64,000 nt of DNA from Favolaschia claudopus (lineage: Eukaryota; Basidiomycota; Agaricomycetes; Agaricales; Mycenaceae), in contig JAWWNJ010000048.1 of assembly GCA_037176885.1 (NCBI GenBank), positions 992,001-1,056,000 of the forward strand, written 5' to 3'. Below, one piece after another: positions 33,005-64,000 of this stretch. A program made the translations under genes and the position numbers. A model generated the notes under the pieces. That model made no database searches. It was not told the origin of the DNA and saw only the letters and a program-made list of their open reading frames with translations. Numbering within the stretch: the first letter of the stretch is position 1; each line of letters begins with the position of its first letter.

Positions 33005-33914
33005 CCGCCTCAGCTATTTTAGGATCAGACCGCCGAACGAGACTTGCTACTCGGCACCGGCCGCCAAGTTCACATCTTCGGGTTTGAAGAATTTTTGGTC
33101 GCAGAATATAGTGGGTGTTTTCCCTCGCTCGGCAGGTAGGAAACGGAGTCAATCCGTCGGGACCAGCAAACGTCCGCGATATAATGGTCGTGGACGGAAA
33201 TTTTCCGCCGCCTGTCTAGACGGATGTTCTCGCCGGGGCATGTACGTTGAGAAATAATTCCGGAAACACCGAATCGCAACACGGGGACTTGGGCTTCGCT
33301 ACGGTTCGACCTTCACACCTATCCCTGTGCTGTTATGAGAGACCAATAAGTAACCTCTTTATATCCAGGCTAGGTGCAGTTTGAGAAAACAATTTGGTGA
33401 CTCTGAATCTAATCGCAAGACTGCTCAATGCGCTCCCACTGCCGCAAAATTCACATCAGCCATTAGCCCCGCATTGAAGTACAAACGATACCTGCGCCAA
33501 TAAATACGTTATGCCATCCTCCAAGGACTCGATGGTGGCTTCCCCATACCTTATACCTTGGTGATCGTTGACAGTTTCGCCGTGCTGTACTGTTCTCACT
33601 AAACCCGTCCGCTACCCTAGATCCATTCCTGTAATTCGCGTTGTACTTCCGTATAATCCATGTTTTTTCATCACCACGCTTAGGGATTGTGGCCTAAGTC
33701 AGATATGACCAGCCGTAGTAACACCTACTGCCTTGCTATGTAATTACGTCCAGCCCGCCGAATGACGACACTGATGGCGGCCAGCTATCGCTGCCATTAC
33801 CTTGTGCATACACATATCACCGCCTAGCGGTACCTGTCTCCTTTTTTACTGCTAACACTCTCTGCTGCTCGATTCATCCGCCAACGTCCACACTACTTCA
33901 CAGTGATATCTCAC
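33005..33914. other. Gene-free stretch up to the left satellite array
   Basis: About 0.9 kb without supported genes. Composition changes near 33690, approaching the 67-bp repeat array. The left boundary of the proposed mobile element should lie in the last 250 bp, but I could not see a clean terminal repeat. Confidence 0.45.
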
Positions 33915-34470
33915 TGCCGGCATCTGTGCAGTCTGATCCTCCCGCCGAAGACCAGCACATAATTTGCAGGCTGATCTACCCGTACGCTCGTCTGGCGGCG
34001 CGATTCCTCTGCTCACACTAAGCAACTGCACTGCGGCTGCATTTGACCGCCCAGCGTCTGCGCAGTCCGATCCTCCCGCCAAGGGCCAGCACATATTTTG
34101 CAGGTTGATCTACCTGCGCGCTCGTCTGGCGGCGCAATTCCTCTGCTCGTACTAAGCAACTGCACTGCGGCTGCATTTGACCGCCCAGCGTCTGCGCAGT
34201 CCGATCCTCCCGCCGAGGGCCAGCACATATTTTGCAGGCTGATCTACCCGTGCACTTGTCTGGCGGCACGATTCCTCTGCTCACCCTAAGCAACTGCACT
34301 GCGGCTGCATTTGACCGCCCAGCGTCTGCGCAGTCCGATCCTCCCGCCGAGGGCCAGCACATATTTTGCAGGTCGATCTACCCGCGCGCTCATCTGGCGA
34401 CTGGATCCTTCCGCTTACGCTTGCCTGCCAACTGCACTGCTCCTGGCACCCAGATCCTCCTGCAAACACG
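33915..34470 (+). repeat. Left array of 67-bp monomers in 134-bp dimers
   Basis: Two alternating 67-bp monomers. One begins AGCACATATTTTGCAGG, the other AGCAACTGCACTGCGG. Three full dimers plus degenerate ends are present. The second monomer carries CAGTCCGATCCTCCCGCC. Copies are over 90 percent alike in the middle. The array ends about 55 bp before the start codon of the Psf1-like gene. Confidence 0.92.
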
Positions 34471-34523
34471 ACTTGGCAAATTCAAGTCTTTTCTTCACGT
34501 GAGTCGCTTGCTTTATCATCGAC

Positions 34524-35141
34524 ATGTCTTTTGACGACTCATTTGCTGAATCTGCACGTCGCCTCATTGAGCAGTCAAAGCTCAGCATGGACCTGCAGCA
34601 ACTATTGCCTTACAATGGCCCTCTTGTGCGTCTCATCATACACGAGCAGCGCCAATTGGACCAGAGAATGAGTCGCATGGAGGTGGAAGGGGTTACAAGT
34701 GCAGACCACCCGCGCTTCCCAACACTCTTGATCCTTGCGCGGGTGGTTCAACAGAACAAACGCTGCCTTCTGGCGTACCACAACCAGCGACTTAAAGTCA
34801 TCCAAACCGAATATTGGGCAGCAGCTGGTTCTGTACCACATGTCCTCGAAAAACTACGTCGTGACATGTCTCAAGACGAAATCTCATTCCTTCGTGGTTA
34901 CCACGACTCAGTGCTCGAATACCGCCAACAGCTTGCAGCGGACGACATCCTCGACTTGGCACTTGGCATGGAAAAACCGCCGCGGGAGTCTGCCTTTGTC
35001 ACGGTGGAGGCAGTGGTCAGTCTCAATGGGCCGGTCTGCACAGAATCGGGTGTGGTGGATTTTTTACCGGGGACACGTTATATTGTGCGCAAGTGTGAAG
35101 TTGAACATCTTATTCTACAAGGCTATCTGCGAGAAATTTGA
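34524..35141 (+). CDS. GINS complex subunit Psf1-like protein
   Basis: One exon of 205 codons starting 55 bp after the left satellite array. The N-terminal A domain is helical and contains the family signature NKRCLLAYHNQRL, then YWAAAGSVPHVL and SQDEISFLRGYHDSVLEYRQQL. The short C-terminal B domain ends RYIVRKCEVEHLILQGYLREI (21 residues from R to I overlap the usual end of Psf1). Psf1 is a subunit of the heterotetrameric GINS complex that, with Cdc45 and Mcm2-7, forms the eukaryotic replicative helicase. Length matches Psf1 (about 200 residues). Several positions look divergent and the gene sits inside a putative transposon, so it may be a captured paralogue rather than the essential host copy. 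It converges on the exonuclease gene with 43 bp between stops. Confidence 0.85.
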   Translation: MSFDDSFAESARRLIEQSKLSMDLQQLLPYNGPLVRLIIHEQRQLDQRMSRMEVEGVTSADHPRFPTLLILARVVQQNKRCLLAYHNQRLKVIQTEYWAAAGSVPHVLEKLRRDMSQDEISFLRGYHDSVLEYRQQLAADDILDLALGMEKPPRESAFVTVEAVVSLNGPVCTESGVVDFLPGTRYIVRKCEVEHLILQGYLREI

Positions 35142-35184
35142 ATACATTGCGCTCAGCTTACTACAAGTACTGCTAGTCCGTACT

Positions 35185-36214
35185 TCATTCTCTCATGAAA
35201 CCTCGGAAGAAACCAGCAGACGACCACCATGGACAGTAAGGAGTCCACAATTGATTGTGTTGCCCCTCCATCACACGCCGACGGTACACAACGTCGAAGC
35301 AGTACCAAGACCTTTCGACTAAAGCCCCACGAGCAGCGACAAACCCTTGCAAAACATTGTATGCAGCCAGAGTTGCATGAGCGTCACATGCAGCATCTAC
35401 CACAAGAAAGAATACATTCAAACACGTCTAGGATCAGAGAAAGAATATGACATACATGTTTTTTGTGATTCGCTTAGGGGAATCGCTTTCCAATCCGATC
35501 TCCGCTCTCCCTTCTCCAACTTGAACCCTAGGGTATGCTCAACAATGTCGCTCAGAGACGGTTCATGGAGGTAAGGGATATTCCCGGCTATTTCTGTTGG
35601 ATATGCTAGTCTCGCAAGCAAGCCGAGAGAAAGAGCGCTGTTGAGATGAACACGAAAGTCATCCCACAGGCGTATCCCATCGGCTGTTACATATGGTTAA
35701 AACAGATGTATTCAATCGGTGCAAACCCGAACTCACAGAATATACCTGCAGAGACTTTAGTGATGGTCGTACTCTGACAGATTCGGCGCAACTCTTCAGG
35801 CATAGCTGTTGGGCTCGTACGTCAGCAAAGACAAATGTAGTATAATTTACGGTGCATACCTTTCATCACATTCAGATTGATGACCAGAACAGTCCCATCC
35901 ACTGATCCAATTTGCACCAGACAGGTCTCGACATCGTCCCAATCGATGGTGAAGTTGTGACTGAGAACATCGCGGACCTGGTTGTTTAGTCGAACCTTCT
36001 TTTCAGACTTGCTCAGTGGTGGGCGATTGACTCGACAACCCTCCATATCGAATGCGATGATAGCACCATCTGTGATTGCGCGAAGACGGTGATTCGTCTC
36101 GCCCAGCTCTTCAAGGTACAGGAAAACAGGGGCTGGATATGGTGAGAGTGCAGGAGCCCCAGGAACAGGCAAATGTGTGGAGGGGATGGCGGGGTGCACA
36201 GATTGAGAGAGCAT
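35185..36214 (-). CDS. DEDDy 3'-5' exonuclease domain protein
   Basis: Four exons, 36214-35860, 35805-35746, 35683-35456 and 35396-35185, total 855 nt (284 residues). The RNase H-like fold of the DNA_pol_A_exo1 family is shown by exo I with Asp and Glu (IIAFDMEG), exo II Asp (ADGIRLWDDF) and exo III YxxxD (YAACDA). The stretch CLVQIGSVDGTVLVIN forms the central strands. All four DEDD acidic residues and the tyrosine are present, predicting active metal-dependent 3'-5' exonuclease on DNA or RNA. There is no helicase or RQC domain, so it resembles stand-alone fungal exonucleases rather than WRN. It is divergent from the gene at 36383 and lies inside the proposed mobile element. Confidence 0.87.
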
Positions 36215-36382
36215 TGGCGACGGTGAAAAGAGGAAGGTAATCGATCTTGCGGTTTTGAAGTCACTTGACTGCTTCGTTAGGTGAGTTTTTCTGCGGTAGG
36301 ATTCAGCCGCAGATACCTAAACTGGAATTTTGACTTGACAAAGCTTTGGATTCAGCCCGCTGAATTGATACTCTCTGCAACC
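36215..36382. promoter_or_regulatory. Bidirectional promoter of exonuclease and unknown gene
   Basis: 168 bp separate two divergent start codons (36214 minus, 36383 plus), so the two genes probably share regulatory sequence. No canonical TATA box is visible. Confidence 0.5.
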
Positions 36383-38605
36383 ATGTCGTTCAGCAGCTCC
36401 CCCCCGCTGTCGCCCATTCCAGAGGAGAAGCTGGCTTTAGGTAGGTTATTAGTACTTAACAGCGGAAGCTTCTCAATCTGTGAGCAGAAGTCGCTCGTTG
36501 CCAAGAGGAGGTCGCTAGCGCTCAGGCCAATCTCGAGGCTAAAAAATTGGCTAGTCAACGTGCAGTAGCTGGCAGTAAGCTTTATACTGCCTTACATGTC
36601 CAGGAAATAATTACGTTGTGTAGAGAAAAGGACCGCGGCGCAAGCTGTCAAGAAAGCAGAGAAGAAGCACGAACAGACTGTAGCAACTCTATCTGTTGCA
36701 CAGGCGGCTTTGAAAGCCTATGAGGCAGCCGAGGCCCTGCACAAGAAAGAGACAGCACATGTTCCTGAGGGCCAGTTTATGCCCAATGACGCTGACGAGG
36801 CGGCAGTGGAGGCCAAGCGCAAGGCAGCAGCAGCAGCTAAGCCACCGATTGTTGAGGGAGAGGTTGCGCTTGACAATGATGAGGCGACTGCAGAGGTCAA
36901 GCGCAAGGACGCAGCAGCGTCAAAGCCGCTGGTTGTTGAGGGAAAGATTGTGCTCGATGACGGTGAGGCAACTTTGGAGGCCAAGCACAAGGCGGCAATG
37001 GCAGTGGAGCCGCCAGTTGTTGAGGGAGAGGTTGTGCCGCCACGGGATGATAGCGAGGCAGACAGACAGAAGCACAAAGGAAAGTCCTCCAGGGGCAAGG
37101 CGGCAGAGGAGACAGCGACAAGTGAAAAATCTGGGAAGAGAAAGAGGGAGACAAAAGCGAAGGGTCAGTGTTTGCGTATACTATGAGCCATAATCAGCAA
37201 CTCACAGAATTCTCAGCAAAGCCCAAGGAGCGCACACTACAACAGATCAATGACTCTGCTGAATCGGTAGATGAAGACGATGCTGCCCATCGTAAACGCG
37301 TAAAGATTCCAAAATACACTCCAGCAGACGTCGAGCATCTAGAACAATTACTTGATGCCCTCATCAATACCGTCGGCACCACGAAGTTGACTGCGGAGGG
37401 TAAACAAACCATGGATGACCGACGAAGGGAAATCGAGACTCAGCTCATCAGAGTCAGAGCAGAGCTTGCTGACCCAACTTATGGTTAGATCCTCATGTGC
37501 TGTGATCAAGTATTACAAACTCACCGCATCCAGATTATATTTCGCCCGACTCAGACGACTTGAGCTCAGACGATAATAAATCCAGCGATACTGGCGAAGA
37601 CGGGGATACTACTGATGATGGAGAGAAACCCCAAGCGAAAGGCAAGACAACTGGGAAGGGTGCAGGACAGACGGCTGGTGCAAAGAGAGCTGGTGCGAAG
37701 GTCGCTGTTCCCAAGGTGGCTGGTACGAAGGGGAAAGCAAAGGGTGATGCCAAAGACGATGACAAGCCCCGGGGTGACAAGGATGGGAAGGGTTCCGGCA
37801 AGCACGATATTGAGTACACCTGGTGGAACTCCTTCACGCCTGACGCGGAACATGACCAGGACACGTATCCAGATGGTCCCGAAAAATGGAGGGAGGATGT
37901 CACCGGTATATTTTCTTACGTCGTCCGATGCTGCTGCTGATAAATTAAACAGATGCCTGCGAGAAAGCGGTTTTCAAGTACCTAAACAATAACAAGCGCA
38001 AGTCGTACATAATCCCTGCTGTTTATCGCAGGCTCATGCGAAAGGTCGCCGAGGTAGCCCCCGAATGCGCAACCTCAAGCAAGGAGTTGGCAATCCACAT
38101 CCTCACGTTGAAGAGCGGGATGACGACTTGCCGCTTCCATGACGAGAAGGGTGATACAAAGGCAGGGAAAAGTGTTGACGGACCCACAGAATCTAAGTTT
38201 ACGCTCGTTGGCGTGCCATACTCCAAGGGTATCTCAATGCCAGCGGGTTTCTTCGAGTGCGGCTGCGCCGAACAGGATGCACTGTTTGACTTGATGTGGT
38301 TCAAGACCTGGAAGCTCAAGTCAGCCAACCCAGCGCTGACAGAGGTAGAGGACATGAAGAACGATTGCCTTGGATCCCGTCACCGCACATTGTTTGCCCA
38401 AATGCACGAGCATAGCACCTTGCTCGACGTCGAGGACTATTACACAAAGGAGTATGATTTCGCAACGGCGGAACACCAGACTCGTCTTCGTATTCTTCAG
38501 CTTGAGCGCCTCGTTGGAGAGCTGAACAGGTTGGACGGTTCTAATTTTCAATACCGAGCTGTGAGGGAGCGGAAGGTGGCCAAAACCGCACCCATGCAGG
38601 AGTAG
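36383..38605 (+). CDS. Unknown element-borne protein with 41-aa repeats
   Basis: Six exons: 36383-36440, 36488-36574, 36624-37163, 37208-37483, 37534-37905 and 37953-38605, total 1986 nt (661 residues). Residues 10-80 are coiled-coil. About residues 100-200 hold three units of roughly 41 residues, each with an EAKRKAAAA-like segment, a KPPIVEGEV-like segment and an acidic spacer. Then follow a Lys/Arg-rich basic segment, an acidic Ser/Asp stretch and a second Lys/Gly-rich segment (KGKAKGDAK type). The C-terminal 250 residues begin TWWNSFTPDAEHDQDTYPDG and look globular, ending in a helical part. I recognise no family. Charged repeats and basic tracts suggest nucleic-acid or chromatin binding (inference). 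Its position next to the exonuclease suggests a joint role. Confidence 0.75.
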
Positions 38606-40012
38606 CTACGATATGCTGCCTATCCATCGAATAATTAGCCACTGCTAAATCAGATGTCGACTTTTGCTTCATACCTTGTGAAGCTTCCTAGCATAGCTTA
38701 CTGTCTAAGCAGCCACCGAACCACTCACCTCCCTGCCAGCACACACGTTGCGCGAGGGTAAAATGCTTCCGCGGGAACAAGCAGATCGACATGTCAAAAC
38801 TTCGTGGGAAGCAGCTATGACATCATAAATATAATGCACATCGTAACATTTGTACGGACTTTTACTTGCTCAGAGATTCCAGCACCAGCTCTGAGTTACT
38901 ATAGTGTCTCAATATGTTTATAAGGAATAGCTCTATGTACTTTTCACCGTTCAATGCTTTATTATACTTGAAAAATGAGAGCATCAATGGTAGAAATGTC
39001 GACATTATTTACTGCATGTACACCAGCTTTCTAGGAAATTTGGCTCCATGGAATAGCTTGTGTTTTGCTGTAGATTTTACTTCTCAACTCAAATTTTTTT
39101 AAATACTCATGGTTCAAGCTATTCAATTCGCCGTTGTTCACTTTTACCATCAAAAATGTTCGTAAAGTTGCACAACGGCGATTTTATCTCACTCAAGACC
39201 TAAGGTAGGGCCCTCATTTTTGTTTAGTGCCTTTCTACAACAAATGCAAGATAATCTATGAAGCTAGATTATTTTTACAGGGTTTGATTCAAGCTCTAGA
39301 GGATTTTCAAAGGTTCCCATCAATTTCGTTCCAAAAAGGGCAGATCAAGTCACATCGTCAGTAACACTTGCACGTCATCACACATTCCTACCCAGCGACC
39401 CGCAGGTCAATCTCACTGCCAACTCCAGAGGGCACCTTCGGCCCACTCAGTGCTCAAACTTGCGGACTTAACAAGAACGAACACAATTTCTCGAGCAGCT
39501 GGATGTATGTGCAGGTATCAAGGGCAGTCGGATCCTCCCGCTAATTGTACCTGCAGCTGGCTCCTCCCGCACAGAACTGCATGACCGTTGCAGGTGTATC
39601 ATGCCGCTGCGACACCGCTCCCAAGGATCTGACTGCAGGGCTGAGTGGTTTCATGTGTCCCGAACTCGTTGTGGACAAATCACGAACTCGTTGCGCATGC
39701 CATCCAAAATCTTTTGCTCTACTACTTGACTCACCACACATTTTTGAGGATTCTGAATTGTAGGTTGTGTTTCTGTGATGCTTAGTTGCCTTCTAGATTT
39801 TTCCGGTGAATTCAGGTGATATCTAAATTTTATAATCTTCGTCACATTTCATCTCGAGTCCAGGTTAGGATTCACTAGTGATTTCTGTCCTAAACCACTA
39901 TCATCACGGATTCAAAACATTCGACCTATTGAAATTCTGTTATATTTTGATAGGTAATGCTCTTAAGACTCTCTCTAGCTAAGATTCAGGCTCAAATACG
40001 TTCAGGGTCGGT
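38606..40012. other. Gene-free stretch inside the proposed element
   Basis: About 1.4 kb. The part 38880-39340 is AT-rich with no supported ORF. At 39520-39680 there is a GC-rich patch with repeated CTGCAG and TCCTCCCGC motifs, like degenerate monomers of the flanking arrays but not at 67-bp spacing. It could be an internal element boundary. Confidence 0.5.
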
Positions 40013-40622
40013 ATGGAGGTTGACGAAGACGATGAACTTGCACAAATCAAAGCTAGATACGCTGCAGATTCCCATCGTCGAGCGGCCGAGGTCTATCGCT
40101 GGAGGTATGTTCTAAATTGAACATCTAAGCACATGAATGTCATAGCTTTCGAGGAACGAAGATCTAGAAAGGGAGAAGGCTCGGAAACGGATGGCTGCGT
40201 ACATGCATCCAAACTACTTGATTCAAATTACTCACTATATTTCCAGGCGTCGTGAACGGCTACGAGCAACAGACAATGAATGGGAAGTATACCGGGAACG
40301 CTGCAAGGCTTCAGACCGCAAGTATCGAGCCAGGTGAGGGATTTCTAGCGGTAACTATCTAACCTATCTTAATAAATCTTTCAGAAATTCAGCCAAGATT
40401 GCGACGAAGGCAAAATTGCGCCGCATTGAGTATGTTTATACTATCTATCCCTTGGCTACCACGAGCTAACTACTTCTAATTCAAAGGGCAAGCATCGAGA
40501 AGCATGGATTCGCTAAATCGAATGAGTTGTACAATCAAAGGGAAGATGCACGCAGAGGGAAGAAAGAATACATAGCCAAAACGCTCCAAAACTCACACTC
40601 CTCACGAAAGCGGGCCGTTTGA
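40013..40622 (+). CDS. Small basic coiled-coil protein
   Basis: Five exons, 40013-40104, 40154-40198, 40247-40333, 40385-40429 and 40487-40622, total 405 nt (134 residues). An acidic start (MEVDEDDELAQIK) is followed by an Arg/Glu/Lys-rich, almost wholly helical chain, for example EDLEREKARKRM and RRERLRATDNEWEVYRER. No domain is recognised. Exons are as small as 45 nt. Its position between two other element genes suggests it belongs to the mobile unit. Acceptor choice for exon 2 (TTTCGAG) was forced by an in-frame stop at the alternative. Confidence 0.6.
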
Positions 40623-40713
40623 GCTTTCAAATGTTTAGCTAGTAGTAATTCATTGCATAGTGCGGTAGCGAATGAAACATATGTTATCGTCCTATCTGAC
40701 AACCCACACATCT

Positions 40714-41878
40714 CTATGCCACACGAGTCTTCTTCTGAGCGACCCGCAATTGAGCTTTAAGTGCCTGGACCTCCAGCCGCTTGGCTTCCAACTCCTCCGC
40801 TTGAAGCTGCATTGTTTCCTCTGTGGTGTCGGCCCGACGAAGAGCATCACGTTCAGCTTCTTGTGCAGCGACTAGCGCTTCGGTGGCGCGTTTCTTGTCG
40901 TCTTCAGCAGAAAGCAGCCGTTTGTGCATTTCTTTACTGTCTTCGTTGCGTGAGGCGATGAGACTGGCAAAAAGTTTATTGAAGTGGTTTGTGATTTGTT
41001 CGGTGTCTTGCTTTCCCTCTTTCAGCAATCGGGGGGAGGCGTAATGTAAGAATGGGCCTTGAGCAAACAGATGTTGTGCCGTGAAGTGCAGCCAACATCC
41101 AGTTTCGATTGACATGCGCTCACACTGCGATTGATGAGAAACAGCCGCGTTCTATAACAAAGTCGGCACACACCCTTTCAATGATTTCCATCGCACATCG
41201 CAAAAATCGAGCACTTGCTTCTGCTTGAGCGGCGATAGGGTCACGCAGAGCTTTCGAACGTATTATTTCTATTGAAAAAAGACGTTCACTAGCACCAAAT
41301 GAGAATCATAGCCAACATACCAATTTTTTTTCCACCTCGCATGGCCCCTTGCACCTTTCCGTGAATCGCATTTGTCTTGGTAACTCGGATGCGGGCAGGG
41401 CGATTCCCTGAAATGGATGATGTATCCTTTTCGCTGCTACTAGCTACCTCTTCGCCGGCAGTTGAGCTCGAAGACATGACGTCTGGAGCCGTGGTAGCAC
41501 CGGCCAAGGTGTTGGCACTGTTGTGGATGAGTAGAACGGGGTCTATGTGCTGGGCGCTCGGGATTGGCCGGTTGGGCAAAGAGACGGCATAGCGTGGAGT
41601 AGGACTGGTCCACGCAACATAGGGGTGCGCAGGGTTCCCCTGAGGCGTAGTCGGATACATGGGCCAATATTGCAAGGCATTTGCCGCAGATGCCAGCTGA
41701 AATGTGCTGGAGACGCATAGAACGGATTCACTTCAAAAGGACTCACCTCCTGATGAGCATTCCTTTGCTGCTTGAGATACTCTCGACCTTCAGGAGTATG
41801 AGCACATTGTGAGGTTTTTGTTGGTACTGGACATTGGGGGCAATTGCGCTCGACGTCTTGTTCGTCGTGTCGTGGCAT
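40714..41878 (-). CDS. Coiled-coil protein divergent from the KDZ transposase
   Basis: Four exons, 41878-41747, 41696-41321, 41268-41174 and 41124-40714, total 1014 nt (337 residues). The N-terminus has a CPQCPVPTKTSQCAHTPEG cluster of Cys/His that might bind zinc. The middle (about 50-165) is Pro/Ser/Thr-rich. Residues 170-215 include IRSKALRDPIAAQAEASARF. The last 90 residues are a strong coiled-coil (DDKKRATEALVAAQEAERDAL). No known family. Its start codon is 100 bp from that of the KDZ transposase gene on the opposite strand, so it is probably an accessory protein of the same element. Confidence 0.7.
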
Positions 41879-41977
41879 AGGTAGCAGCCCAACTCGGCAT
41901 CTATTGGCAATTGCGTGACATTTGTGAGCGGAGGAGAAGGACTGCAGAGCGCGGCGAGATCTACCTGCACTAGCTTC
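41879..41977. promoter_or_regulatory. Bidirectional promoter of the transposase and accessory gene
   Basis: Only 99 bp separate the divergent start codons at 41878 (minus) and 41978 (plus), implying shared control. Confidence 0.5.
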
Positions 41978-44900
41978 ATGACCATGGACAACGATGACAC
42001 GCCCTATATTACCTTGGAGACCCCGCCTCCATCCCCTCCTGCTCCAATCCACTTGCAAAGCAGCACTCCGCAATCGGCAGTCCCGCTCTCCATTGTAACT
42101 CCGACACGAAAACGGCGCAACAATGAGAATACAACAAGGCGTCAGCGTAAGAAAGTGCCTCAAGTTGAAGAACTGCCTATACATGAGGAGATGCCCGAGT
42201 GGGATTCAGCAGCTGCTGAGTTGGCAGCTGGCAGTGAACCTATGTGGAATAGCCCCGAGCGACGAATACAAAGAGCGGATGACGAGGACAGTGCTGGAGT
42301 GGTCGAAGGTGAAGGATACACAGAATACTGTGAGAGCATCCAGGAAGAAGCCGGTGCATTTTACCAGATTGGAACCGATCTTTTCGTGGTGAATGGTTGG
42401 GATACACAAAGAAAGGTTTCGAAGGCAAGATATATTGATTTATCACATACCGCTTCTTTCTAACTCAATTCTGCGACGCAGACTTCTTGGTACCACCTAC
42501 AACGCTCAACCATCGGGGACGTACTCGTGACTGCCTGCCAATGCCCTCTCAGTCGACCAGATAAACCGTGTGTTCATCAACGGTTTCTGACTGAATACGG
42601 CGAAGAAATGTTTCCATTCGATCCATCTATGGCGAAGTCAAATGGTTAGCCTTCAGCTTGCTATCGTCAATCTATCTAGCATTAAACAATTGTGTGCTTA
42701 CTAGAAGAGAATCGTGCTATATTATTCTCGCGCACGGAGGTGCAAGACGGAGTTTTTCTCAACCACTTCTCCACCCTTTCCCCAAATTCTCGATCACTGG
42801 CAGGGCGGGTGATTGTCGTCCACACAGGGGAAGACATCGGGAGCGGAGAATGGGTCTGTGGGAAGGATACAACCGACCGTGGATGCTCGCATATCAACCA
42901 GAGCCGGAATCTACTGCAACAACTCATTCATGTTGATCCAATGGCTTCACACCAATACGTTGATAACGGGTCTACTATTGATTACCTAGGTATGATTGTT
43001 GCCGACTATAGCTGACGCTTCCTGATTGAACCTGTTCGCAGTGCCTCGACAACGACGTGCTCCAGTCGAACAGAAGTCTGTGTCTTATCTACCTGTCTCT
43101 GCACCACCGTGGGCAGTTCTACCGTCAGACCCGCACCTTTATGAGCGAGCACCAGCATTGGAGGAAGCACCAGACACTCTGCGTCTGGACACGACGTCTT
43201 CTTGTTGTTGCACAGACCCACGACCGCTTTACAATCCAGCTGGCTCTACGGTCAAGATGACTTGCACCGTGTATGGCTTATTCCGTGCCTGGGAGACGCA
43301 AATTGAGCTACAACGATGCTCAAATACTCGCTGCCGCCATCGTTTCATTGGTCCTGATCCCCGGGAGCAGGGTATTTTCAATTACAACAATCGGCAATTA
43401 TTCTCGCATGATCTTTTGGACGAGTATACTGCAGCTTATACATCATCTGAGACTCCTTTCTCTGCGTGGGTCATCGTTGTCTCTAGGCGCTACGCTCTTC
43501 ATCTCGGTGGCACAGAGCATCCATTTGTGACAGCGAATGTCTTCCGCAGCGTGTGGTTTGGCTACGTGAAACTGCAGTACCTGGAGGGAAGCATGAGATG
43601 TCCTCGCTGTGGCCCTTCCCCAGAAAACACAATTTGGGACGGCGTGACGCTGGCGTTTAACCGAAAGCACTTGCTTCCCACTCTTGAACCCCCGACAACG
43701 TTGCAGCAGGACTCCATTGAGCGTACCACAACTCGATATGTCCCCGATCAGCAACTCATCAGTCGAAGCGTTAGGCGCCTTGTTCGCCTTGTCATCACTG
43801 GTACACCGCTGACACTACAAGGCATGAGAAATGCTGTAGCTGCTGCTTCATCGGTTACAGAGGAGGATGAGGAAGAGGATGACGACGATGACGATGCTGG
43901 GGACGATTCAGCAACACCGCGTAGGAGCAGGGCAGAGCGAGCCGCAGCAAAAGTCCAACGAGAAATGGCAGACCGGCTTGACGCGATCCTACCCGCCGTG
44001 GAGGGATTGACTCGTGCATGTTCTTCTCTGGGGGTTCTATTCAACACAAAGTTTGGGGAGGAATCTGTAATGCAAAACTCGCCAGCACCAGATGTGTACC
44101 GGCGCTTCTTTATACAGGTAAACATCGATTTGCCTTTACCGAAACCAGTCCTTACTCGTAATCCAGATATGTGCCGAGGAGTCAGTACTTCAAATGACTA
44201 CTAGACCTGCCCTGAACTCGTTGGAAGCCTTTGTCACCGTCCCAAATGCAAGAACTGCATCAGCTCTAGTCGAAATTCCTGCTTTACATGAACTATTAAC
44301 TCATGAAAGAGCTCATGGAGATAACTTTTCGGATACAACTCTGGGTGTCTGTCGTTGGATGTTGGAACGTGGTAGGGCCGTCTTAAATTCCTTGATTAAA
44401 GGCCCCGAGCCACCTAGGGTTAGCGAATTTGCTGTAGAGAAACCATGGACGGAGGTAAATGCTTGCATCTTCCTTCACTTACATTGATGCGATGAACTTT
44501 TCTCTTGCAGACAGGCTGTTGCTATGGCTTACCGAAAATCAGAGAACGGCCACGATATCCGAAGCTGAAGCATGATATCAACAACGAGGTCGGGGGCAAG
44601 CGAGGGGCCAAGTGCTCTAAATTCTACTCTCAGTACGGTGAACGACGACTCACGGGGGGCATTATGTGTGTTTGGTGCACCCATAGTATCTGCTATGGAT
44701 TCCACTGCATTCCTAAAGGAGAAGGGCGCAACGATGTGTTCTCTGCCTTGTTGACTAGGTGGGAGACAGCACCCAAGCGCGTCATTTACGATTTTGCATG
44801 TGCACTTGGACCATACTGCATGACTCGGGAGCCTGCATTTTTTGCTGATACTCAGTTTCTTATTGACGACTTTCATTCCGTTGGACATACTAAGTGCTCC

Positions 44901-45098
44901 CCTGCTGCATTCCTTAAAACTCACTGCAATGTCGACACTCGTCTCTCCTATATCAACTCAAGTGCGGGGGAATGTGGAAATAGTGGACTGGGTCGCATTC
45001 GGAAGTCTGTAAGTTACATGTCTCAAGAACGAGCTATCCTATATTCCAGAGTTTTTTTGTGTATTTGGAACCGGTTGCGAATGCGAAAAATGGATTGA
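41978..45098 (+). CDS. KDZ-family transposase with SWIM-like and CxC clusters
   Basis: Six exons, 41978-42415, 42482-42644, 42705-42989, 43042-44117, 44167-44454 and 44511-45098, total 2838 nt (945 residues). An acidic/basic N-terminus precedes a SWIM-like CxCx(n)CxH motif (ACQCPLSRPDKPCVHQ). A second Cys/His site follows (WVCGKDTTDRGCSH). Next is a CxC5/CxC6-like cluster (MTCTVYGLF, QRCSNTRCRHRF, GIFNYNNRQLFSH) with CPRCGPSPE. The catalytic part has RVIYDFACALGPYC, the KDZ Y-D-x-A-C signature, and LIDDFHSVGHTKCS. KDZ (Kyakuja-Dileera-Zisupton) DNA transposons are abundant in Basidiomycota. All signature acidic residues I can judge are kept and no stop interrupts the frame. It ends 50 bp before the right satellite array. 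Confidence 0.85.
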
Positions 45099-45149
45099 TG
45101 TGCATGATACCACACCGGCCAACACCTAAGTATTGTACAATGAGAAAGA

Positions 45150-46145
45150 CGATGTAGGGCAGAAAATGTTTGCACATGCCCTCCACACAATTACTGACTG
45201 CAGCGAAAGAAGTCCCCGCACACCCTCTGCATCCATATCCCCCCGCGCAATTACTGACCTCGAGATGCGGCAGAAAAGGGCCGCAGACGCCCTCTGCGGG
45301 AGGATCGCGCTGCGCAATTACTGAGCTCAACGTGCGGCAAGAAAACTCCGCACATACCATCTGAATCCATATCCCCCCGTGCAATTACTGGCCTCGAGAT
45401 GCGGCAGAAAATCTCCGCAGACGCCCTCTGCGGGAGGATCGCGCTGCGCAATTACTGAGCTCAACATGCGGCGGGAAAACTCCGCACATACTGTCTGCAT
45501 CCATATCCCCCCGCGCAATTACTGACCTCGAGATGCGGCAGAAAAGGGCCGCAGACACCATCTGCGGGAAGATCCCCCCGCACAATTGCTGAGCTCAACG
45601 TACGGCAGAAAAGGGCCGCAGACGCCCTCTGCGGGAGGATCGCGCTGCGCAATTACTGAGCTCAACGTGCGGCGAGAAAACTCCGCACATACCGTCTGCA
45701 TCCATATCCCCCCGCGCAATTACTGACCTCGAGATGCGGCAGAAAATCTCCGCAGACACCATCTGCGGGAAGATCCCCCCGCACAATTGCTGAGCTCAAC
45801 GTACGGCAGAAAAGGGCCGCAGACGCCCTCTGCGGGAGGATCGCGCTGCGCAATTACTGAGCTCAACGTGCGGCGAGAAAACTCCGCACATACCGTCTGC
45901 ATCCATATCCCCCCGCGCAATTACTGACCTCGAGATGCGGCAGAAAAGGGCCGCAGACGCCCTCTGCGGGAGGATCGCGCTGCGCAATTACTGAGCTCAA
46001 CATGCGGCGGGAAAACTCCGCACATACCGTCTGCATCCATATCCCCCCGCGCAATTACTGACCTCCCTCTACAGACGGATTCCCCCGCCCGCTCACTGAC
46101 CTCGACCTGCAGCGAGAAGTCACTGCACACAACTTCTGCAGTCGA
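45150..46145 (-). repeat. Right array of 67-bp monomers, inverted relative to the left
   Basis: About 13-14 monomers of 67 bp. Type A contains GACCTCGAGATGCGG and GCGGGAGGATCGCG. Type B contains GAGCTCAACGTGCGG and CATCCATATCCCCCCG. They alternate mainly A-B (134-bp dimers) with some variants such as an AATCTCCGCAG block. Each monomer has a hairpin-forming TGCGG...CCGCA pair. The last two monomers (46063-46145) are degenerate but keep the 67-bp spacing. Confidence 0.93.
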
Positions 46146-46515
46146 AGCTCGCCGCCTCAGCAACCTCGATGCACGTCGAGATACTGCCGCTGATGCTGCT
46201 TGAGGGCGATGACCAAAAAGGAGCATACCTTGGAGCAGTGCGATTGAGCCGCAGCCGGGTAGGTAGCGTAGGAGGACATTACTGTGCAGAGAGATCTTGC
46301 TGCAAAGGCTGGCTAGTGCAGCGGGCGGTGCGTGGTACGGCAGCGGGCTGTATTGATCTAAGTGGGAATGTTGTAGGTGGTTATACAGCGTGACATGTCA
46401 GAGTTATCCGGGGATTGTAACGCTAGAATTTGCTTGGACCATCAATTATCGTGTAATTGCGCTTACGCTAATATATATCAAAGTCTTGTCACGACTGCGC
46501 TTGTCTCTCACTTCC
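46146..46515. other. Intergenic region
   Basis: Right flank of the satellite array and promoter of the MINDY gene. No gene seen. The right boundary of the proposed element should fall here or in the last monomers. Confidence 0.5.
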
Positions 46516-62967: not shown

Positions 62968-64000
62968 TCACTTTGCTTGCTGTGGGTCAGAATTCTCATT
63001 TTTCCGCTTCTTCCCCCCACCCTCTTCGTCCTCCATTCTCTTCTTGGACCTCTCTAACGTCGCCAGCAGCTGTTTATCCGCTTCCGCACTACCGGGAATT
63101 GGTCGCGACGACAACGGAACCGGCATTTCTCGACTCGCTGCGGGCTTGCGAGCGCGCTTTGTCCTTTCGGAGAGGAGGGTTGGCGGTGCGGTGGCGGCTG
63201 GTGGCTTTAGTGGCAAGAGGATGGTAAGCGGCGCTCCCCCCGCAGGGTTATGCAGCCGCCGTGCCTCCGCTGCAGCCTCAGCAGCAGCCCCCTCATCTTT
63301 CTCCTTCTCCCTCCTTGCGTTCTCCCGCATCTGCTGCGACATCGACATGGGTAGGGGGGAGTCCAGGGAGAGCGGGACGGCGTTCCCGTTACCGTCATAC
63401 GTTTGAAAGAACGTATATCCGGCTTCTCTTGCAGTTTGCGGTCGTTTTCCCCCACCCCCTCCTCCCCCTCCCCTACTGCCACTTGGTCCACCATCATCAC
63501 CACCTCCTCCTCCTCCTCCTCTCCCTCGTCCTCCTCGTCCTCCTCGTCCTCCTCGTCCTCCTCGTCCTCCTCTCCCTCCTCCTCGTCCCCCTCCCCCTCC
63601 TCGTCCCCTTCCAAGTCCGCGCTGATCCCCACTGTCACCGCGAGGCGCCGGTGGAGCATTGCAGCGTGTGCGGGAGCTGGGGAATGCGCTCGCCGACAAC
63701 GGGACCGCTTCCGGTATCACAGCCAAACAGTTGGTGGTGTTTGCAGCGATGGAAACGGGTGCGGTGACTGGTGGAGCGGCGGAGGATGAGGTGATGGTGG
63801 TCAGACTTGACATCGGCTGTGAAGGGGATGGAGGAGACGGTTGTGCTGGAGACGAAGTGGCGGTCGACGCCGGGCGAGAGGCCACCGGGGAGTGGGGTAA
63901 AGATGGCGCTGCTGAAGTTATCGAGACGGGCGCAGGCGTGGAGAGCGGAGAGGTCGCTAGCGCCTTTGGGCGGGGTCTTGGTGGTGTCGGCGTAGAGGCA
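62968..64000 (-). CDS. RGG-box protein, 5' end outside the window
   Basis: One frame from the right edge to a stop at 62968, with no start inside the window (the frame is open through 64000). The visible 344 residues are disordered: Ser/Thr/Pro/Ala-rich first, then an RGG/GRG tract of about 40 residues at 63600-63460, then a short more ordered part (REAGYTFFQTYDGNGNAV). A charged Lys/Arg tail ends GGGKKRKNENSDPQQAK. RGG tracts commonly bind RNA or G-quadruplexes and are arginine-methylated. The tract is coded by GGAGGACGA-type nonamers, so its length may vary between strains. Function unknown. Confidence 0.75.
   Translation of the reverse strand, partial: ASTPTPPRPRPKALATSPLSTPAPVSITSAAPSLPHSPVASRPASTATSSPAQPSPPSPSQPMSSLTTITSSSAAPPVTAPVSIAANTTNCLAVIPEAVPLSASAFPSSRTRCNAPPAPRGDSGDQRGLGRGRGGGGGRGGGRGGRGGRGGRGGRGGRGRGGGGGGGDDGGPSGSRGGGGGGGGKRPQTAREAGYTFFQTYDGNGNAVPLSLDSPLPMSMSQQMRENARREKEKDEGAAAEAAAEARRLHNPAGGAPLTILLPLKPPAATAPPTLLSERTKRARKPAASREMPVPLSSRPIPGSAEADKQLLATLERSKKRMEDEEGGGKKRKNENSDPQQAK

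Follow-up and report, generated by a model that had tools for sequence, protein, structure and literature searches.

KDZ transposons have been described in Cryptococcus neoformans, where the passages on KDZ1–KDZ3 give a size of approximately 9–11 kb, target-site duplications (TSDs) of 8 bp in KDZ1 and of 4–8 bp in KDZ2/3, terminal inverted repeats (TIRs) of 139–241 bp and a putative KDZ transposase with CxC1; these passages make no mention of a replisome gene (PMC12810828). Fungal Kyakuja, Zisupton and Dileera elements carry TET/JBP genes and, in the portion of the source used here, the Zisupton and Dileera example has 8-bp TSDs, while Kyakuja lacks TIRs and shows 7-bp TSDs with CA..TG ends (PMC12730594). 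In the Spm/En and CACTA transposons, as far as the relevant part of the source describes them, a short motif is repeated inside both ends and bound by TnpA, which also regulates the activity of its element, and the motifs diverge between families (PMC2613891). Among the matches listed in the open-licence PMC literature, no title or beginning of an abstract reports a transposon bearing GINS or Psf1.

The locus described here lies in the 264.6-Mb genome of Favolaschia claudopus (Mycenaceae), within a stretch of 64,000 nt that is referred to as the window. A unit of 12.7 kb has been inserted there with an 8-bp duplication, and three complete copies in the genome have done the same (the window element, C3 and C51); C25 is a broken copy. 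The unit is delimited as follows:

33691..46410, + strand: complete KDZ transposon of 12,720 bp, bounded by homology to C3 (33691 to 46408), TSDs and an empty site
33683..33690, no strand: left 8-bp TSD GGGATTGT, identical to 46411–46418
46411..46418, no strand: right 8-bp TSD GGGATTGT, matching the left one
33691..33728, + strand: left TIR, 25/38 identical to the right one (shuffles as high, 0/5000)
46373..46410, − strand: right TIR, with matches to this terminus at 8 further genomic locations

Exact 8-bp TSDs flank all three complete copies (GGGATTGT, CCCTGGAG and GAATTGCT), and that of C51 was expected from the right end and then confirmed on inspecting the left flank. Each insertion also has its empty site, two of them in homologous contigs and one in a repeat copy. 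For the window element, contig C5 holds a single target copy, GGAATTGT, with 143 of 152 alignment columns identical. The C51 site is empty on C91 (150/150 over the junction, 892 bp at 99.9%), an identity that points to a recent jump; C23 is also uninterrupted at this site (86%, with 20 gap letters), in an alignment that is not clean at the target. The empty site of C3 is another copy (C30) of the repeat that the element entered (136/140). An observation that would suit a segmental duplication or a plain cluster of host genes is that just four of the 7 Psf1 matches in 264.6 Mb are of the element type, but such a reading is next to impossible, refuted as it is by three TSDs out of three, by the empty sites and by flanks that differ among the copies; ordinary synteny or duplication is ruled out by the TSDs and empty sites. 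The first-pass annotation had proposed a mobile KDZ element with Psf1 and exonuclease genes, which the TSDs, empty sites and conserved termini bear out, within bounds (33915–46145) that proved too narrow.

The 38-bp TIRs are imperfect (25, 23 and 23 of 38 in the three complete copies; 0/5000 shuffles each) and the element ends in GG..CG, with a CAG-side variant in C3. Imperfect TIRs agree with the KDZ superfamily, as does an 8-bp TSD, the length given for Zisupton and Dileera, whereas the 7-bp TSD, CA..TG ends and absence of TIRs of Kyakuja are not found. As far as the passages on Cryptococcus KDZ1–KDZ3 go, the Favolaschia element resembles them in size, in its 8-bp TSD and in a putative KDZ transposase that bears a CxC zinc domain (PMC12810828), and differs from them in its short imperfect TIRs, its CxC4 cluster, its dyad arrays (described below) and its Psf1 and exonuclease genes. 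Six genes are enclosed by the arrays, as had been annotated, although the models of genes 3–5 are approximate:

34524..35141, + strand: Psf1 (GINS subunit), 205 aa, single exon; Pfam PF05916, 1.4e-8
35185..36214, − strand: DEDDy 3'-5' exonuclease, WRN/EXD2-like, 284 aa, 4 exons; PF01612, 1.7e-14
36383..38605, + strand: gene 3, approximate model, with a low-complexity, coiled-coil-like N-terminal part and a conserved C-terminal exon (37949–38605)
40013..40620, + strand: gene 4, small basic protein, spliced; approximate model
40714..41660, − strand: gene 5, approximate model
41978..45098, + strand: KDZ transposase, 945 aa, 6 exons, intact frame, with a finger that we take to be of the SWIM type, CxC4 and a KDZ DDE core

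The CxC4 zinc cluster of the transposase is recognized by Pfam at 8.8e-46 (155 bits, cut-off 26.9). The Pfam KDZ profile is matched below its cut-off (6.1e-4, 20.0 bits vs 26.6), likewise in P0035–P0037, while the relatives P0091, P0104 and P0108 bear the Pfam KDZ domain. The D, D and E of the KDZ superfamily core are conserved: putative D844, D869 and E904, presumably the catalytic three, are kept in 86/87, 80/82 and 79/87 of the rows with a letter there (121 aligned). Comparison of the window with C3 shows that the transposase exons are under purifying selection. No function is assigned to any of the three proteins of genes 3–5. Gene 3 has no Pfam or PDB match, and its C-terminal exon is conserved in C3, C51 and C25 and, distantly, in C5a; the gene 4 region is 72% conserved in C3, and the C-terminal exon of gene 5 is 77% identical in C51, 66% in C25 and 48% in C5b.

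The element Psf1 scores below the cut-off of the PSF1_C profile (17.1 bits vs 27); its family profile, compared with the PDB, finds Psf1 chains in 10/10 matches (E <= 0.01; best 2e-27, positions 7–204 of 204). The similarity thus covers both the A and B domains, over the whole length and to Psf1 chains only, and Foldseek places CMG/GINS entries on top (TM 0.5–0.6). Unlike the host's own Psf1 (P0026), to which it is about 40% identical, the element protein is borne by a transposon and has multicopy relatives in several species. It is intact and under purifying selection: the window and C3 differ by dN 0.14 and by a dS of 1.10 that is near saturation, and the frames are open, with no stops, in the window, C3, C51 and C25. 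Since its sequence has diverged strongly from the host Psf1 with fold and length kept, the protein might be imagined not to work as a CMG subunit but to act on host replication, slowing or retiming it as a decoy or dominant interferer; this is rather unlikely, given that the similarity to Psf1 spans the entire protein.

The neighbouring exonuclease is a gene model whose final codon and stop were taken from the sequence; its frame is intact and it reaches 54.4 bits against the Pfam 3'-5' exonuclease domain (cut-off 23.6). The nearest PDB structures of P0033, its close relative in C3, are WRN and EXD2, and the first exon alone finds only unrelated oxidoreductases in the PDB (best E 0.059). An earlier description of the enzyme as proofreading-type has to be abandoned, as has a polymerase proofreading exonuclease, because WRN and EXD2 are the closest solved relatives of P0033. 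By this C3 relative, the element enzyme shares with WRN and EXD2 the DEDDy-type 3'-5' exonuclease; it differs in being a stand-alone protein of 284 aa without helicase, carried by a transposon. In two of its exons dS is far above dN (window vs C3), which shows purifying selection.

It could be asked whether Psf1 and the exonuclease are hitchhiking fragments of host genes that have no role for the element. Fungal DNA transposons do capture cargo, as the portion of the source on TET/JBP genes describes (PMC12730594), and in C51 the pair of Psf1 and exonuclease genes lies inverted. However, the open Psf1 frames in four copies, dN values well under dS in both genes, the distance from the host Psf1 and the presence of relatives in 10 species make this explanation improbable. 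The element resembles the TET/JBP-carrying KDZ elements, in the same partial account, in having a captured gene that possibly helps it and in the 8-bp TSD of Zisupton and Dileera, and it differs in that their cargo is a DNA-demethylation enzyme (PMC12730594).

Relatives of the element Psf1 amount to 32 matches, 27 of them named, from 10 species of Mycenaceae, with several copies in several species. Eleven of the 27 lie on a contig equal in length to that of a KDZ relative among the matches listed, and such putative sharing of a contig can mislead: the KDZ listed for C25 (P0066) belongs to a neighbouring element, and C25 was for that reason omitted from the distance test. In the remaining 11 pairs (10 of the 11 contig-sharing pairs plus the window), Psf1 and KDZ distances correlate with r 0.74 (0/10,000 permutations), for which shared species history alone could suffice. 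The Psf1 alignment (A1) held 18 of the 32 matches plus the window, the Psf1 tree 22 of the 32 plus the window and three host copies, and the KDZ tree 20 relatives plus the window. The Psf1 of C51 groups with that of C25 (90/85) and its KDZ with the window and C3 (100/100); this discord and the inversion of the pair in C51 imply that cargo and transposase are not always one travelling unit. The Psf1 tree also sorts the proteins of M. epipterygia and M. vulgaris to the side that holds the host copies (98/96, with a long-branch warning) and so does not establish one mobile lineage for all relatives.

Having described the genes, we turn to the arrays at the two ends, where, as the first-pass annotation had it, the KDZ gene adjoins the right array and the Psf1 gene the left. 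Tandem Repeats Finder delimits the left array at 33923–34399, with 3.6 copies of a period of 134, and the right one at 45222–46065 (periods 67, 134 and 201). The unit beneath both is an 18-bp dyad, GCRG-N10-CYGC, spaced by 29/38 bp, which is distributed in the window as follows:

33928..34385, + strand: left dyad array, 12 of the left end's 13 sites (the 13th at 33777), 29/38-bp spacing
45267..46303, + strand: right dyad array of 21 sites, tandem over 45222–46065
36293..36310, + strand: internal site, flanked by the divergently oriented exonuclease and gene 3
39402..39607, + strand: four internal sites (39402, 39524, 39553, 39590), intergenic
41928..41968, + strand: two sites upstream of the transposase gene, beginning 50 and 27 bp from its start codon

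The four ends of the window element and C3 contain 13, 20, 21 and 18 dyads (shuffle means 0.19–0.38), and outside the stretches that defined the motif there are 9 in the left end of C51, 21 in its right end and 11 in the left end of C25 (shuffles 0.09–0.20). A further 12 lie in C51 between Psf1 and gene 3 (shuffles 0.09–0.20), which means that the arrays are not solely terminal. The N10 spacing is kept in the window and C3 and other spacers are near 0, with some exceptions (16 dyads at N7 and 9 at N20 in the right end of the window element; in C3, 4 each at N13 and N14 on the left and 3 each at N6 and N7 on the right). All seven internal dyads of the window are intergenic (on approximate gene models, intergenic DNA amounts to 19% of the element's interior), and in 4/4 copies dyads lie upstream of the KDZ gene, beginning 27–55 bp from the start codon.

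Several earlier descriptions of the arrays are refined by this motif. The 67-bp monomers and 134-bp dimers are real as periods found by Tandem Repeats Finder, but not as the functional unit, since one dyad underlies arrays of 67/134 bp in the window and C3 and of 79, 106 and 66 bp in C51. The TGCGG/CCGCA hairpin assigned to the right array is the dyad itself, and it is present in the left array and internally too. Alignment solely in opposite orientation holds for the window at the level of 9-mers (0 direct and 7 inverted, or 10 with wider bounds; 8-mers, 5 and 21; best inverted arms 28 nt, 89%) but is not general: the arrays of C3 share 15 direct and 20 inverted 9-mers (10-mers, 10 and 9) and those of C51 share 9 and 14, the inverted excess being weak or absent there as expected of a near-palindromic unit. 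Pairing of arrays around other KDZ genes, a test that had been suggested, was positive for C3 and C51. Dispersed satellites were rejected, because in the search of 264.6 Mb of DNA, with a tool that skips very common words, each array matched itself alone.

The same terminus is found at five further insertions, which contain 8, 7, 8, 1 and 5 dyads in ~450 bp; all other spacers of 2–20, pooled, give 3, 3, 3, 6 and 3. Dyads stand beside the terminus in four of the five (C22 is not enriched), and among the matches listed in the Psf1 and CxC4 searches no gene is nearby. In the stretches read, the dyad counts are 0, 1 and 0 for three other CxC4 KDZ genes and 0 for each of three partial CxC4 loci, and twenty loci from a general KDZ search have 0–4 at N10 (4 in L015). 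A separate, post hoc observation is that the array of the C5b element contains a GGTT-N12-AACC dyad, with 8 matches against 0–1 at other spacers; elsewhere this dyad occurs once in C5a and 0 times in the C25 stretch.

The variation of array length and period between copies, and the different arrays that adjoin other CxC4 KDZ genes, would be compatible with passive, functionless satellites expanded near transposon ends. This is very improbable, as the exact N10 dyad is common to the window and C3 even though BLASTN aligns none of their arrays, and the dyads of the interior lie between genes and close to where the KDZ reading frame starts. The proposal that the arrays could be ends with multiple binding sites fits well: the dyad persists where the remainder of the array has changed, and it stands beside the terminus in four of the five further insertions. 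In anatomy, and in anatomy alone, such ends are like those of Spm/En: many copies of a short motif lie inside both, the Favolaschia dyad being a candidate binding site. The differences, within what the source passages cover, are that Spm/En belongs to the CACTA superfamily, whose soybean element makes a 3-bp duplication (PMC2613891), whereas Favolaschia has an 18-bp dyad and a putative binder.

With regard to that binder, the product of gene 3, 4 or 5 or a host factor may take the place of the transposase. GCGG-N10-CCGC resembles the inverted CGG half-sites of fungal zinc-cluster regulators, and this likeness, the dyads in internal intergenic stretches and the C51 array between the divergent Psf1 and gene 3 would all suit arrays that act as enhancers or silencers, bound mainly by one of these three proteins or by a host zinc-cluster factor to regulate transcription, and not as transposase ends. 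Such an arrangement is possible, if on the unlikely side: dense arrays stand beside both termini in the window, C3 and C51, four of the five further insertions retain terminus and dyads with no Psf1 or CxC4 gene nearby among the matches listed, and both roles can coexist, as in TnpA of Spm/En.

The locus is a DNA transposon of the cut-and-paste type, of the KDZ superfamily (CxC4), with TIRs and an 8-bp TSD, and the account of its workings that follows is, taken as a whole, likely. The transposase, by its zinc finger, or else another protein that the element encodes would bind GCRG-N10-CYGC at both ends, and the bound ends would assemble a synaptic complex; binding to the dyads 27–55 bp upstream of its own start codon may provide self-regulation like that of TnpA in Spm/En. 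More tentatively, the element Psf1 might enter GINS or the CMG helicase, or tether it, and together with the WRN-like exonuclease might link replication forks with excision, insertion or the repair of gaps, through which the element could gain copies or tolerate the damage from moving a 12.7-kb body. A bolder version, which we regard as quite unlikely, is that the element assembles or tethers the replicative helicase at itself: Psf1 would sit in GINS, iteron-like arrays would bring transposase and CMG to both ends, and excision, fork passage and re-insertion would be coupled, with over-replication or with movement only behind the fork.

The finding bears on how eukaryotic cut-and-paste transposons maintain their numbers and use replication. 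A core CMG subunit that is mobile and under selection, a WRN-like exonuclease beside it and, for the element family, an empty site of near-complete identity within the one genome render the question directly testable, and the conserved dyad of the arrays is a concrete candidate for the site that KDZ transposases bind. If the helicase-tethering reading were true, this would be a eukaryotic cut-and-paste transposon that owns a part of the replisome.

In the Favolaschia claudopus (Mycenaceae) assembly that contains the window (264.6 Mb in 460 contigs, the window being on C48), the two satellite arrays reported by the first-pass annotation are present at the positions it gave, and the genome-wide DNA search it proposed matched either array to itself only. 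The claim that the arrays are alike solely in opposite orientation holds for the window copy, in which all shared 9-mers are inverted. Between them lie genes for Psf1, an exonuclease, three further proteins (genes 3, 4 and 5) and a KDZ transposase. The element, initially placed at 33915-46145, does exist, but its homology with a second copy on contig C3 extends beyond the arrays, giving ends at 33691 and 46410. This homology breaks off sharply at window positions 33691 and 46408, and the right end is set at 46410 because target-site duplications (TSDs) flank both sides of the window copy (GGGATTGT) and of the C3 copy (CCCTGGAG), the window pair lying about where the earlier annotation had suggested looking. 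The imperfect terminal inverted repeats of 38 bp are identical at 25/38 positions in the window and 23/38 in C3, values reached by 0 of 5000 shuffles.

Genes of the window element, related copies and further insertions
Window, between the arrays, minus strand: exonuclease, 4 exons
Window, between the arrays: genes 3, 4 and 5, function not assigned, approximate models
Window: KDZ transposase, 6 exons, 945 aa, intact frame; finger that we take to be SWIM-type, CxC4 zinc cluster and DDE core
C3:2819394-2831937: second copy, six genes as in the window, order kept; ~70-75% nucleotide identity, matching in stretches
C51:377554-390168: third copy, 12,615 bp
C25: fourth copy; exonuclease, Psf1, genes 3 and 5, left end with GGCCTAAGTCAG
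C62:1398364: further right-terminus insertion, flanks differ
C73:1106905: further right-terminus insertion, flanks differ
C193:30747: further right-terminus insertion, flanks differ
C22:710518: further right-terminus insertion, flanks differ
C1:1331420: further right-terminus insertion, flanks differ

The copy on C3 (a contig of 3,432,889 bp) has its own arrays, with a period of 134 bp on the left and 67/134 bp on the right, which enclose its six genes, so that the predicted pairing of arrays around KDZ genes recurs elsewhere; the frame translation of its Psf1 matches the database protein P0001 exactly. The C51 copy was reached through a Psf1 match. Its right end was located by similarity, the expected TSD GAATTGCT was read there first, and in the left flank, inspected afterwards, GAATTGCT immediately precedes GGCCTAAGTCAGA. 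The five genes sought in it are all present (Psf1, exonuclease, gene 3, gene 5 and transposase), the exonuclease and Psf1 being inverted as a pair relative to the window, and an additional array occupies the interval between Psf1 and gene 3. In the tree, the C51 Psf1 lineage differs from that expected from its transposase, and together with the inversion this makes it likely that cargo modules have been exchanged between elements. On C25, just the first ~60 residues of the transposase were found within the stretch read; CxC4 fragments and a distant right terminus farther along suggest nested insertions across ~39 kb.

Empty sites, which the first-pass annotation recommended comparing in another strain, were found on other contigs of the same genome, and their sequences place two in homologous contigs and one in a paralogous repeat. 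On C5, the left and right flanks of the window element adjoin each other, overlapping by 8 bp; 143/152 alignment columns are identical and the target, GGAATTGT, is in single copy. C91 is the empty counterpart of the C51 site (150/150 across the junction), and the C51 insertion is recent, given the 99.9% identity of its flanks to C91 over 892 bp. C23 is also uninterrupted relative to C51 (86%, 20 gap letters), with an alignment that is not clean at the target position. The C3 copy inserted within a repeat of which a C30 copy is uninterrupted (136/140), and neither locus matching the unique C3 flanks (C8, C10) spans the C3 junction. This repeat (C3:2819022-2819393) is of ~500 bp with partly palindromic halves, and at least 109 matching pieces occur in dozens of places.

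Side by side, the window and C3 ends resolve into a single unit, the 18-bp dyad GCRG-N10-CYGC, whose 10-nt spacer (N10) is often centred on GATC or GAT and whose spacing alternates between 29 and 38 bp (sum 67). The four ends hold 13, 20, 21 and 18 dyads, where shuffled sequence averages 0.19-0.38 (maximum 3). Spacers between 2 and 20 other than N10 give counts close to 0 there, with exceptions ascribed to array repetition: in the window right end N7 has 16 and N20 has 9, in the C3 left end N13 and N14 have 4 apiece, and in the C3 right end N6 and N7 have 3 apiece. The motif was defined from window and C3 only and is conserved in C51 and C25, taken up afterwards, of which four stretches hold 9, 12, 21 and 11 dyads (shuffle means 0.09-0.20; all other spacers summed, 1, 3, 12 and 4). 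The 67-bp monomer, previously taken as the unit, gives way to the dyad, which C51 keeps in arrays with periods of 79, 106 and 66 bp.

Within the elements, internal dyads are intergenic in 7/7 cases in the window, where 19% of the interior is intergenic by approximate gene models, and in 9/10 cases in C3, judged from gene borders transferred by alignment. In each of the four copies, one or more dyads begin no more than 60 bp upstream from the transposase start (-50/-27; -55/-31/-27; -50; and -36, the C25 start being that of a tblastn match). The 51 kb of window outside the element contain 5 N10 matches, within the range of 3-11 given by other spacers. Also in the window, 1744-1803 (60 bp) matches, at 93% identity, a short hairpin-like insert within the C3 element and is probably a small dispersed repeat, and 63503-63606 is a CCTCCT simple repeat.

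The terminal 95-120 bases at the right end occur, with a common last base, at six places beyond C3 and C51, and one of these is assigned to C25 as its right end. In the DNA search the left terminus matched window and C3 only. The other five have 8, 7, 8, 1 and 5 dyads in ~450 bp (all other spacers summed, 3, 3, 3, 6 and 3), an enrichment at four of the five that C22 does not share, and on C62 the dyads number 25 in the ~1 kb leading up to the terminus. None of the genome matches listed for Psf1 (7) or CxC4 (9) is near any of the five, which therefore seem non-autonomous or decayed.

The host Psf1 loci (C4:1992598, C12:1718155 and C22:1198979) adjoin a gene presumably ALG12-like, a label drawn from its frames. 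They share 84-87% nucleotide identity over 3.6 kb, which suggests that several diverged homologous sets coexist in the assembly (heterokaryon, hybrid or polyploid). No N10 dyad occurs at these three loci, and CxC4 KDZ genes without Psf1 have 0 (C5:2404001-2413500), 1 (C5:2612601-2622200) and 0 (search locus L054) and different tandem arrays nearby; from these dyad-poor controls, the dyad therefore marks the subfamily of the window element. The two C5 genes have arrays of 169/337 bp (C5:2405028-2405842) and 116/232 bp (C5:2619313-2619953) beside them, with a relative of either gene 3 or gene 5 in the vicinity. L015 (C183:45022-48804), a KDZ locus of a different type, has 4 N10 dyads, above the other 19 KDZ loci examined.

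As for the cargo, all ten PDB matches of the Psf1 family profile at E <= 0.01 are Psf1 chains (best 2e-27), and the best of five AlphaFold models (pLDDT 81; others 57-71) has CMG/GINS entries as top Foldseek matches (TM 0.5-0.6). Between window and C3, dN and dS are 0.14 and 1.10 for Psf1, 0.028 and 1.47 for the last transposase exon, 0.12 and 1.43 for its CxC4 exon, and 0.14 and 0.64, and 0.17 and 1.25, for two exonuclease exons; selection on these coding sequences appears as clear constraint, though dS is near saturation.

The Psf1 relatives comprise 32 proteins, and the 27 with an organism name all belong to Mycena or Favolaschia (10 species: M. olivaceomarginata 9, M. galopus 7, F. claudopus 3, M. 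albidolilacea 2 and six others 1 each). Eleven of the 27 are on a same-sized contig as a KDZ relative among the best 120 of 134, a lead and not an element count because on C25, one such shared contig, the KDZ belongs to a neighbouring element. In M. epipterygia the Psf1 and KDZ gene-model numbers are consecutive. A single mobile Psf1 lineage is not proved, as the M. epipterygia and M. vulgaris proteins fall on the host side of the tree (with a long-branch warning). The protein search found two exonuclease relatives and is an undercount, since C51 and C25 carry the gene at 40-60%.

KDZ elements of Cryptococcus are described as active, with 8-bp TSDs (PMC12810828), a length shared by the window element. 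Fungal KDZ elements also carry TET/JBP genes (PMC12730594), and 'GINS', 'exonuclease' and 'tandem repeat' are absent from the main text of that report; searches of open-licence PMC papers turned up none describing a transposon that carries a GINS gene. The sequence comparisons establish the insertion of the element, its TSD and ends, the conservation of its dyads and the selection on its genes. The dyad arrays can be likened to the subterminal repeats of Spm/En, which are bound by TnpA, a protein that regulates its own activity (PMC2613891); here, the transposase or a partner protein would be the binder. More tentatively, Psf1 and the WRN-like exonuclease would couple movement of the element to replication forks.
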